DNA of 32,243 bases, taken from Desulfobacteraceae bacterium. GTDB taxonomy: Bacteria > Desulfobacterota > Desulfobacteria > Desulfobacterales > SKZT01. Positions within the stretch are counted from its first letter, which is position 1. Every line of letters starts with the position of its first letter. The translations under genes were made by a program, and so were the position numbers. The DNA lies in the NCBI GenBank assembly GCA_011389745.1, contig JAABTQ010000036.1:1-32243 (forward strand). Reading direction: 5' to 3'. Shown here piece by piece: positions 13,498 to 18,166 of this stretch. The notes under the pieces were generated by a model. The model did no database searches. It was not told the origin of the DNA and saw nothing but the letters and a program-made list of their open reading frames with translations.

Positions 13498-14778
13498 ATG
13501 AAAACAAAAAGTTCAAAAAATGATCTGACCCATGAGGACATTTTACGGTTTAGAAAAATAGAATCCGTGTTTCTGAACCGCTGCAAGCATTTCGGATACA
13601 AGGAAATCAAAACCTCAACCGTGGAGCCTCTCTACATTTTCACAGCTTTGGGTGCGTTGAGAGATGATAAGTTAAACCGCATTTATTCATTTATCGACTG
13701 GGACGGCTGGAGCGGTGAGCGGGTTGCGTTGAAACCCGACTCCACCACTTGTGTGGCACGCTACTACGGAGATCATCTTCGTGGTGAAAATCCCCGCCAG
13801 AAACTTTGTTATGTGGAAAATCACTTTGAATGGGCTGATGACTGGGATAAGATCTCCGAACGATGGCAGTGCGGTGTGGAAAACATCGGAAGTGCCGCTC
13901 CGGAATCTGACATTGAAATCATTTACATGGCTTTGGATATTTTAAAAAATGCCAATATCAGAAAGTTCCGGCTTTACCTGTCATACCCATCCATTATCCG
14001 CCAAATGGTTCGGGGACTGGGGCTTTATGATTCCAGACAAAAAGAGCTACTTGAAGCGATCCGCAAACGCGAAGATGTTCAGGACATGATCAAAAAGTTA
14101 GCTGTTGAACCGGAAAAAGGAAGAGAACTGAATGCGTTTCTTCAAACACCCGAAGAAATTCCCGAATACTCGGCCAACTACCTGGAAAATTTAAAATATT
14201 CGTTGACCAAAGACACTTATGATCAAATTGCACCCTGTCTGGATAATTTTATATCCATTTGCAAGAGTCTCGACAACCTTAAATGTAACTATGTGATCGA
14301 TTTTTCCATGCTGGGAGACCTTGAGTATTATACCGGAATTAAATTTCAGTTTTTATCTTCGCAGGTTCGAAAATCGAGAAAGGATATTCTTTGCTCAGGC
14401 GGTCGTTACGACAGCTTGATTAAAATGATGTGGGAAATTTCAGAACCGGTGCCGGCAGTCGGTTTTGCTTTGTTTGCCCGAAATATGATTCCATCCATCC
14501 CTGCGGTCACGGACAAACTTCAGAACATTTGCATTTACATCGGAAATATCACCAAAGGCAACGTCGAAAAGGGACAGTATCTTTGTGACAAGCTATCCAA
14601 TCTTGGATTTTCAGCCCGGATATCATTTACTCAGGTCAAACCCGAGGAATATGATGATTATGGTATGGTGATCGAAGTGGATTATGACGCATATGATGAC
14701 GGATACCAGGTGTTGTCGAGTCAAAAGATCGGGAAACCTTTGTTGATGAACCTTTTTGGAGAATTCAATGGCCGCTGA
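13498..14778 (+). CDS. HisZ-like (histidyl-tRNA synthetase paralogue) regulatory subunit
   Basis: A 426-residue class II synthetase-like protein. The opening (EDILRFRKIESVFLNRCKHF) and LKPDSTTCVARYYGD match motif 1 and the strand before motif 2. Motif 2 is degenerate: the aminoacylation FRxE is HFEWADDW here, followed by SERWQCGVENIG. DLEYYTGIKFQF and CSGGRYDSL correspond to the histidine-binding loop, and PAVGFALFARNM to motif 3. Loss of the first motif-2 arginine argues against tRNA charging and fits HisZ, the partner of short-form HisG. Unlike typical HisZ it keeps about 85 C-terminal residues resembling a degenerate anticodon-binding domain. The start has AGAGG just upstream, and a weak TTGACG/TAAAAA promoter lies at 13409-13437. 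Its end overlaps the next gene by 11 bases. Confidence 0.8.
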   Translation: MKTKSSKNDLTHEDILRFRKIESVFLNRCKHFGYKEIKTSTVEPLYIFTALGALRDDKLNRIYSFIDWDGWSGERVALKPDSTTCVARYYGDHLRGENPRQKLCYVENHFEWADDWDKISERWQCGVENIGSAAPESDIEIIYMALDILKNANIRKFRLYLSYPSIIRQMVRGLGLYDSRQKELLEAIRKREDVQDMIKKLAVEPEKGRELNAFLQTPEEIPEYSANYLENLKYSLTKDTYDQIAPCLDNFISICKSLDNLKCNYVIDFSMLGDLEYYTGIKFQFLSSQVRKSRKDILCSGGRYDSLIKMMWEISEPVPAVGFALFARNMIPSIPAVTDKLQNICIYIGNITKGNVEKGQYLCDKLSNLGFSARISFTQVKPEEYDDYGMVIEVDYDAYDDGYQVLSSQKIGKPLLMNLFGEFNGR

Positions 14779-15448
14779 TACGATAAGTGTTTGTCTTCCC
14801 AAAGGAAATTCCTTGGAACCTCTTGCCGGATATTTCGAAAAAACAGGTTTTCCGGTTTGCGAATACCACTCTAAAAACCGCACCTACCGGCCTGTCGTGG
14901 ATAATCTTCCGGTTAGAGCCAAAATCATGGCTGAAAAGGATGTTGCGATCCAGGTGTCCATCGGCAACTATGATATCGGCTTCAGCGGTTTGGACTGGAT
15001 CAGGGAACTGACCACCAAATACCGGGGAAGTGACATTCATATTTTCAAACATATGGGATTGGATCAAAAGTGTATTTATGCCTGCACCGGGATAAACGGA
15101 AACTATAATTCAGTAGATGATCTTCATTATAACAATGGTTTTGTCACCATTGTCAGTGAATATCCGAATCTTGCGGAACACTTTGCAATCCAAAACCGGC
15201 TACGAAAATTTAAGATATTTTCAGCGTGGGGAAGTGTCGAAGCTTATCCACCCGAGCATTCCGATGTGATCCTTTTAAGTGCATATAATCCGGAATCTTT
15301 ATTATCCATGGGACTGTGCAAAATCAGTTGCGAACTCGAATCCGAACTGACGCTGATAGTAAACCGCAAAAGCTTCATTCAAAAAGGTCTTTCCACAGTT
15401 TTGAGGTTTTTTTCCGATTCCATAAATTCATCCGGAGAATCAACATGA
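14768..15448 (+). CDS. HisG-like protein 1 (ATP phosphoribosyltransferase fold, PRPP loop degenerate)
   Basis: The 226-residue product opens ISVCLPKGNSLEPLAGYF, the HisG N-terminus, and has the GNYDIGFSGLDWIREL segment (HisG: DIGIVGxDxLxE) and FVTIVSEYPNLAEHFA (HisG: RVATKYPxLxxxYF). The PRPP-binding loop that should read about D-x-V-x-T-G-x-T-L is missing: residues about 167-181 read ILLSAYNPESLLSMG, with neither TG nor TL. It is therefore probably a catalytically weak or structural/regulatory subunit. ATG 14768 is preferred because GGAG lies six bases upstream and the peptide then starts MAADTISV. It overlaps the HisZ-like gene by 11 bases, and its stop overlaps the next start (ATGA). Confidence 0.78.
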   Translation: MAADTISVCLPKGNSLEPLAGYFEKTGFPVCEYHSKNRTYRPVVDNLPVRAKIMAEKDVAIQVSIGNYDIGFSGLDWIRELTTKYRGSDIHIFKHMGLDQKCIYACTGINGNYNSVDDLHYNNGFVTIVSEYPNLAEHFAIQNRLRKFKIFSAWGSVEAYPPEHSDVILLSAYNPESLLSMGLCKISCELESELTLIVNRKSFIQKGLSTVLRFFSDSINSSGEST

Positions 15449-16206
15449 CAGGCATACCTGATAAACTTAATCTGGCCGTTCCCGACGGGCACCTGATGAA
15501 CCATGTGCTTCCTTTTATCGAAGACGCAGGCCTGTTTTTCGAGGGATACGAAACAGATAAGATAGAACGAAGGCCGAAATTAAAACCACTATCTGATGAA
15601 GCCATGAAGATGGTATCCGAACCGGATAAAGTGGCCATAAAAGTTATCCGCCCGCAAGATATGCCGACCCATGTGGCAAATGCCAATTTCGATCTTGCCA
15701 TTTCAGGCACGGACTGGCTCGCCGAACATAAACAGCGATTTCCCGAAAGCCCGGTGATGGAAAAGTTACGAATGGGGTTTGGAAAAGTGCGAATTGTTGC
15801 GGCGATACACGAAGAAAAAGGCAATTCCCTGGAAGAATTCATTAAATCTTTCCGGGCCCAAAATGGTAAAACCCATCTGAGAATCGCATCGGAATATGTC
15901 TATATAGCTGATACCTTTGCACAGGAAAACAGGCTGCATCCCTATCGTGTGATCATGACCTACGGCGCGACCGAATCCCTGATTCCCGAAGATTGCGATA
16001 TGATCATCGAAAACACCGAGACCGGGAACACGCTCATAAAAAACCGTTTAAAGATTATCAGTACCCTTAAAATTCTAGGTGTGCCATGGTCCGAGGGATG
16101 CCTTATTGCCAGCGCCAGGAGTATGGAAATCGGTTGGAAACGCGAACTCATAGATGCTTTTACAACTCTGTTTAAAAAACACCTTCAGGCAAAAACAAAA
16201 ACCTGA
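15445..16206 (+). CDS. HisG-like protein 2 (ATP phosphoribosyltransferase fold, PRPP loop kept)
   Basis: The 253-residue product has the HisG order of elements: KLNLAVPDGHLMNHVLPF, NFDLAISGTDWLAEH, LRIASEYVYIADTFA, and the PRPP loop IIENTETGNTLIKNRL at about 187-202, close to the canonical DLVxTGxTLxxNgL. The helix after it (CLIASARSMEIGWKREL) matches the end of short-form HisG. It is therefore the likely catalytic member of the pair, though it is distant from ordinary HisG (PDG instead of PKG at the N-terminus). GGAG lies eight bases before the ATG, and ATG/TGA overlap couples it to HisG-like 1. No other his gene is near. The acceptor could be ATP or another purine; this is not decidable here. 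Confidence 0.78.
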   Translation: MTGIPDKLNLAVPDGHLMNHVLPFIEDAGLFFEGYETDKIERRPKLKPLSDEAMKMVSEPDKVAIKVIRPQDMPTHVANANFDLAISGTDWLAEHKQRFPESPVMEKLRMGFGKVRIVAAIHEEKGNSLEEFIKSFRAQNGKTHLRIASEYVYIADTFAQENRLHPYRVIMTYGATESLIPEDCDMIIENTETGNTLIKNRLKIISTLKILGVPWSEGCLIASARSMEIGWKRELIDAFTTLFKKHLQAKTKT

Positions 16207-16905: not shown

Positions 16906-17020
16906 ATGAATTCAACCCTGCTATATTCCGATCTTTACTTTTATGTTATTTTTCAATAAGATTCAAATATTCAAATGGAGATACCTTAAAAAAATAAATT
17001 TAGCGGACAAGGGGGATCGC

Positions 17021-18166
17021 ATGGATAAATTTACAAAAGAGGATCTTAAGGAATTATTTGAAATTAATCAATGGCCTTCCATAAGCATTTACATGCCTAC
17101 TCAACGAGCTTCAGACACTCAGCAGAATTCAATTCGATTCAAAACACTGGTTCAAAAATCCGAAAGCACTCTTTCCGACTATCAATATAAGGATGCCAAT
17201 AAATTGCTGGCGGAAGCAAAAAAATTATACAATGATATTGCATTTTGGAATCAGCGGAGCGATGGGCTCGCAATGTTTATCTCTCCGGAAAGCTTCAAAA
17301 TATATCTTTTACCCTATGTTTTCGATGAATTAGTGGTCGTCACCCGACGGTTCCATTTAAAGCCTTTGATTCCGGTAATCAGCTCCAATGCACATTTTTA
17401 TGTGTTGGCCGTCAGCCAGAATAACGTCCGGATGTTGCGCTGCACACACGACAGCGCTGAAGAATTGAAAACCGAGGCAATGCCGGCAAGTGTTCATGAA
17501 TTTCTTAAACACGATACCGATAAAAAACAGCTTCAGTTTCACACCAGAGCAAAAGAGGGCGGTTCAGGAAATCGTCCCGCCATATTCCATGGCCAGGGAG
17601 TCGGAGCTGATGAAACCAAGGATAATCTTTTCCGCTTTTTCAAAGATATCGACAAAGGTCTCCAAACCGAACTCAAAGATGAAACCGCTCCTCTTGTATT
17701 TGCCGGAGTCGATCATTTGTTTCCTATTTTTAAAAATAAAAACTCCTATCAGCATCTCCTTAACGAAGCCATCACCGGCAACCCGGATGAACTTAAAGCC
17801 GAAGAGCTTAAAACCAAAGCCTGGAAAATCGTTGCGCCCCTGTTTCGCCAGGAAGAGCAAGATGCTGCAAAACGTTACACAGATCTACGACATACCAACT
17901 CCACTTCCTGTGAACTTAATGAAATCATATCAGCAGCTTATTTTGGCCGGGTGGATTTTTTGTTTGTTGCAAAAGGAGTTCAAGCATGGGGGCGCTTTGA
18001 CGATAAAAACAACAAAGTTGTTGTTCACAATGAAAAAGAACCCGAAGATGAAGATCTATTGGACTTAGCGGCGGTGTCTACAATAGCCAATAGCGGAAAA
18101 GTGTTTGCAGTCAAACCGCCGGAAGTACCCGACAAAGGTCTTGCTGCGGCCCTATTTCGGTATTGA
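17021..18166 (+). CDS. Bacterial archaeo-eukaryotic release factor-like protein (baeRF family)
   Basis: The 381-residue protein opens DKFTKEDLKELFEINQWPSI followed by SIYMPTQRASDTQQNSIRFK. This matches the N-terminal domain of bacterial homologues of eRF1, most like the group called baeRF3. The later eRF1-like region includes LAMFISPESFKIYLLPYVFD, FYVLAVSQNNVRMLRCT and LVFAGVDHLFPIFKN, and the C-terminal part has EIISAAYFGRVDFLFVAKGV. Such proteins are proposed to act on ribosomes in stress, but the function is untested for most. No GGQ motif is visible. The start at 17021 has GGGGGA six bases upstream and is preferred to a frame 26 codons longer. It is a single-gene unit. Confidence 0.75.
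   Translation: MDKFTKEDLKELFEINQWPSISIYMPTQRASDTQQNSIRFKTLVQKSESTLSDYQYKDANKLLAEAKKLYNDIAFWNQRSDGLAMFISPESFKIYLLPYVFDELVVVTRRFHLKPLIPVISSNAHFYVLAVSQNNVRMLRCTHDSAEELKTEAMPASVHEFLKHDTDKKQLQFHTRAKEGGSGNRPAIFHGQGVGADETKDNLFRFFKDIDKGLQTELKDETAPLVFAGVDHLFPIFKNKNSYQHLLNEAITGNPDELKAEELKTKAWKIVAPLFRQEEQDAAKRYTDLRHTNSTSCELNEIISAAYFGRVDFLFVAKGVQAWGRFDDKNNKVVVHNEKEPEDEDLLDLAAVSTIANSGKVFAVKPPEVPDKGLAAALFRY

Follow-up and report, generated by a model that had tools for sequence, protein, structure and literature searches.

Three overlapping genes at positions 13498-16206 of the window (the whole 32,243-nucleotide stretch of DNA that was analysed, from a sulfate-reducing member of the Desulfobacteraceae) encode, on the (+) strand, a HisZ-like protein followed by two HisG paralogues, referred to here as HisG1 and HisG2. 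We consider it likely that this HisZ-HisG1-HisG2 cassette encodes the ATP phosphoribosyltransferase of the histidine pathway in a three-subunit form, in which HisG1 and HisG2 make up a heterodimer with a composite active site, regulated by the HisZ-like protein. The genes lie as follows:

13498..14778, + strand: putative HisZ-like regulatory subunit, a HisRS paralogue (426 aa; PF13393, tRNA-synt_His, 148 bits)
14768..15448, + strand: HisG1, a pseudocatalytic HisG paralogue (226 aa from ATG; PF01634, 62.8 bits; TIGR00070, 79.0 bits)
15445..16206, + strand: HisG2, a HisG paralogue with a PRPP loop (253 aa from ATG; PF01634, 99.1 bits; TIGR00070, 103.8 bits)

The HisZ and HisG1 frames overlap by 11 nt and the HisG1 and HisG2 frames by 4 nt (ATGA). 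A preliminary description of this DNA had reported three overlapping HisRS-like, HisG and HisG genes, and the open reading frames, both overlaps and the Pfam and NCBIfam matches all bear this out. HisG1 and HisG2 both exceed the NCBI HisG cut-off (TIGR00070 hisG, 75.75 bits), and the two are therefore expected to receive the same name from automatic annotation. Their matches cover the catalytic domain only and a HisZ gene adjoins them, as is the case for short-form HisG. In agreement with the preliminary description, a profile search of the scanned window ORFs found no further his gene near the cassette. Downstream of it, at 16943-18166 on the (+) strand, lies a gene for a baeRF-family protein, which comes closest to the NCBI model of a ribosome hibernation factor but scores below its cut-off; an ORF resembling this protein is also present downstream of the cassette in another carrier genome, G001.

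The evidence for a composite site comes from the active-site residues, which were compared, using the numbering of P. arcticus (Pa) HisG, in an alignment of 12 HisG1, 11 HisG2 and 26 long-form sequences that includes carriers from a second class of the phylum. In the P. arcticus enzyme, Arg56 of one subunit extends across the dimer into the active site of its partner, where it reaches the PRPP pyrophosphate, and the R56A substitution reduces activity 42-fold without HisZ (PMC9734150); Arg73 contacts the ATP gamma-phosphate (PMC10795190). The corresponding features in the window are:

14801..14806, + strand: HisG1 Lys12-Gly13 (KG motif, corresponding to Pa Lys30); the Lys is present in 12/12 HisG1 and replaced by Asp in 11/11 HisG2
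14879..14881, + strand: HisG1 Arg38, aligned with the cross-dimer Pa Arg56 across a one-residue difference in loop length (the same match without and with the second class); Arg in 12/12 HisG1, 0/11 HisG2 and 25/26 long forms
15275..15301, + strand: HisG1 LSAYNPESL, the degenerate counterpart of the PRPP loop; loop positions 176 and 179-183 unconserved in HisG1
15649..15651, + strand: HisG2 Arg69, which aligns with Pa Arg73, the residue contacting the ATP gamma-phosphate; kept in 11/11 HisG2 and replaced by Ala or Ser in HisG1
16009..16035, + strand: HisG2 PRPP loop ENTETGNTL; residues 176, 180, 181 and 183 conserved in 11/11 HisG2

The PRPP loop pattern E/D-x-x-E/D-T-G-x-T occurs in all 11 HisG2 sequences and in none of the 12 HisG1 sequences, consistent with the earlier observation that the loop is kept by one paralogue and lost by the other. 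Long-form relatives retain Lys30, Arg56, Arg73 and the PRPP loop almost throughout (25-26 of 26); in the same alignment, neither HisG1 nor HisG2 presents the full set of active-site residues. The catalytic/pseudocatalytic HisG pair with its own HisZ, as first proposed, is thus real and conserved, but its portrayal as one intact and one dead subunit is incomplete, since HisG2 has also lost the KG-motif lysine and Arg56, both of which are kept by HisG1.

In the HisG tree each paralogue is a single clade and the two are sister to each other (100/98); the stem of HisG1 is longer than that of HisG2 (2.91 vs 0.67 in a first tree, 1.77 vs 0.78 in a second). Because the tree has long branches and a midpoint root, a single duplication behind HisG1 and HisG2 is well supported but not proven. 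For the closest pair of cassettes, dN/dS is 0.04 for HisZ, 0.10 for HisG1 and 0.04 for HisG2, with dS near saturation. AlphaFold2 models of HisG1 (pLDDT 88.6; Z 22.2 to 6fu7) and HisG2 (pLDDT 91.9; Z 23.5 to 6fu7, rmsd 1.9) match solved HisG enzymes with Z of about 19-23, the next folds reaching only about 11-12, and both proteins are accordingly predicted to have the HisG fold.

Since the residue losses are complementary and Arg56 acts across the dimer, one complete site would be expected per HisG1:HisG2 heterodimer, and we infer that this heterodimer is obligate, with one composite active site. HisG1 and HisG2, the presumed products of one old duplication, would pair where ordinary enzymes have a HisG homodimer. 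HisG2 would give the cleft for PRPP and ATP; the cleft of HisG1 would be dead, its Arg38 reaching across the dimer to aid the departure of pyrophosphate, and HisG1 would perhaps also give the KG-motif lysine. The complete site would then consist of the HisG2 cleft and HisG1 Arg38, leaving the opposite site with neither a PRPP loop nor a cross-dimer arginine. HisZ would bind HisG1:HisG2, activate it and carry the histidine feedback site; ATP is presumed to be the substrate of the enzyme and histidine feedback to act through HisZ.

Some points speak against a composite site. HisG2 Arg42 and Arg43, which are conserved and neighbour the lost Arg56 position, might replace this residue, and the loss of Lys30 from HisG2 is unexplained unless Lys30, too, acts across the dimer. 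The same two arginines would suit a different arrangement, in which HisG2 homodimers catalyse the reaction and HisG1 is a purely regulatory or structural pseudoenzyme that modulates the complex, or whose former cleft accommodates an effector, giving no active-site residues. HisG1’s lack of the PRPP loop and of Arg73, its longer stem and its higher dN/dS are likewise in keeping with such a role. However, Arg56 and Lys30 are kept in every HisG1 and lost from every HisG2 aligned, and a HisG2 homodimer alone would miss residues that nearly all long-form relatives retain, making this alternative an unlikely one, albeit one that deserves consideration.

As for the regulatory subunit in the proposed three-subunit enzyme, the first ORF is termed HisZ-like, and not HisZ, because its best NCBIfam match, TIGR00443 (HisZ), scores 163.1 bits, under the equivalog cut-off of 271.65 bits. 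Its score against the histidyl-tRNA synthetase model TIGR00442 (161.2 bits) is also below the respective cut-off (286.75 bits). Both aminoacylation arginines, that of motif 2 and that of RGLDYY, are gone in 12/12 HisZ orthologues, so that the broken motif 2 initially noticed in the window ORF extends to all 12 aligned orthologues. From the former histidine site the protein keeps a Gln and a Glu, and it has also kept the GGRY motif, a combination that fits a histidine-binding regulator. The true HisS of the genome is encoded separately, on contig C14 (351.5 bits, TIGR00442). In Ca. Magnetocorallium a HisS gene adjoins the cassette, and in two second-class genomes one lies close by.

The gene order HisZ-HisG1-HisG2 is kept at every locus of sufficient length, in Desulfobacterales and in the second class of the phylum. 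HisG1 was found in 8 of 389 genomes of the order, with one more genome bearing HisG2 at a contig end, and three more carriers were found among 395 genomes of the phylum, all from the other class; beyond the phylum, the search comprised one pattern-based scan, which would overlook carriers as remote as those of the second class. Among the named carriers are Desulfonema magnum 4be13, whose chromosome is complete, Desulfococcaceae bacterium HSG9 and Ca. Magnetocorallium paracelense, and a search for a plasmid copy of the cassette returned no match. That relatives share the three-gene order, a check named in the preliminary description, is seen down to ~45-50% protein identity, and this recurrence, along with dN/dS values of 0.04-0.10, indicates that the cassette is more than a chance arrangement. 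A decaying remnant, whose genes are becoming pseudogenes in an organism that takes up histidine, would account for the strong sequence divergence and for the key residues gone from HisG1; yet given open frames, a conserved order and low dN/dS in many genomes and two classes, and given that other histidine pathway genes are kept, we find it scarcely credible. In D. magnum, the region downstream of the cassette (L042:5909-6768) holds several copies of a short repeat that encode MSKFSDKIRTKTLSFLRKQES-like stretches and are open on both strands.

The window genome is 99.9% complete, and HisG1 and HisG2 are its only HisG matches; the second, canonical HisG envisaged in the preliminary description was not found in it. 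Because no other HisG exists, the cassette is taken to be the histidine enzyme and not one with a new substrate. The genome encodes HisB-like, HisC-like and HisD proteins, together with the true HisS, on contig C14, HisI elsewhere, a HisH-HisF fusion in a single 526-aa frame (L121:1029-2606, contig C5) and, at the end of a contig, a candidate HisA. In an ordinary relative, G022, HisH and HisF matches lie side by side on L149. When 146 relatives were compared, none of the eight cassette genomes had a further HisG, and a long-form HisG of ~292 aa was present in the majority of the others; four additional cassette genomes also had no other HisG, i.e., 12 of the 12 searched. With randomly assigned labels, the chance that all eight cassette genomes fall among the 20 without an ordinary HisG is 3e-8, a figure to be read in light of the genomes being, by relatedness, far from independent. 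Moreover, long-form hisG adjoins hisI in relatives, and hisI of the window genome (L123:937-1326, contig C1) has no such neighbor, which is compatible with loss of the ordinary enzyme. These observations fit a scenario in which the cassette replaced the ordinary HisG, and disfavor a second, unrelated phosphoribosyltransferase.

None of three cassette genomes (the window genome, G000; D. magnum, G115; and G438) yielded a canonical HisE (PRA-PH), their PF01503 matches being marginal (21-28 bits), and a HisE motif scan around hisG and hisB gave nothing. This would be compatible with a product that bypasses PR-ATP, and with it the preliminary proposal of a new phosphoribosyltransferase acting on a substrate other than ATP, e.g., ADP or AMP, as would the strong divergence of both HisG1 and HisG2. 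Nevertheless, HisE was also not found in the ordinary relative G022, of which 2.06 of about 2.6 Mb were read, a portion that did contain hisB, hisD, hisF, hisG, hisH and hisI, and a link between the cassette and HisE loss was dropped on this ground. Furthermore, the cassette holds the sole HisG of a genome that keeps other histidine genes, relatives have either the cassette or an ordinary HisG but not both, and HisG2 retains the arginine for the ATP gamma-phosphate, all of which argue against a new substrate and render this proposal very improbable.

A further histidine gene in the window genome has an unusual architecture. Its sole IGPD match is a 640-aa fusion protein that combines a HAD domain with two weak IGPD-like domains (L037:6155-8077, contig C14). 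Compared with E. coli HisB, the first of these IGPD-like domains has the later HH motif but no DHHTVED stretch, whereas the second has HxxxED but no later HH motif. The same fusion is present in two other genomes (G001:C311, L119; G143:C283, L120), and the HisB of D. magnum is ordinary. As the metal-binding motifs that appear to be lost differ by domain, the fusion resembles the HisG pair and is possibly a second instance of complementary loss. A bolder version of the heterodimer hypothesis, which we offer tentatively and hold to be somewhat doubtful, is that the enzyme is an obligate heterodimer of complementary half-enzymes in which the emptied cleft of HisG1 now serves as a new effector site, and that the window genus also remade HisB by duplicating and splitting it, leaving two histidine enzymes as complementary pseudo-pairs.

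Taken together, the HisG1/HisG2 pair is best read, on its residue pattern, as an undescribed short-form ATP phosphoribosyltransferase variant whose active site is split; no description of two paralogous HisG subunits was found in the literature searched. ATP phosphoribosyltransferase serves as a standard model of allosteric and feedback regulation. If our reading is true, the PRPP/ATP half and the cross-dimer arginine half of the site reside on different genes, and each could be separately mutated or titrated, which is impossible in a homodimer. It would also constitute a bacterial, operon-encoded pair of enzyme and pseudoenzyme, old enough to be present in two classes.

The cassette resembles the known short-form HisZG enzymes (P. 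arcticus, A. baumannii, L. lactis and T. maritima) in having HisG proteins of the same fold without the C-terminal regulatory domain alongside a HisZ, and in the PRPP loop and ATP arginine of HisG2. Unlike these enzymes, which are hetero-octamers of HisZ and a single, homodimeric kind of HisG, the cassette encodes two paralogous kinds with complementary losses. The long-form HisG of Desulfobacterales relatives, the commonest form among them and found beside hisI, performs the same step and needs no HisZ (PMC8305728), but is encoded by a single gene (~292 aa) and has the complete set of residues. A parallel to the proposed heterodimer is found in trypanosomatids, where deoxyhypusine synthase and AdoMetDC with its prozyme each involve a dead paralogue that activates an impaired enzyme in a heteromer (PMC3663545). 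Those are unrelated eukaryotic enzymes, whereas the pair described here, in which such activation is presumed, is bacterial, encoded in one operon and accompanied by a third, putatively regulatory subunit.
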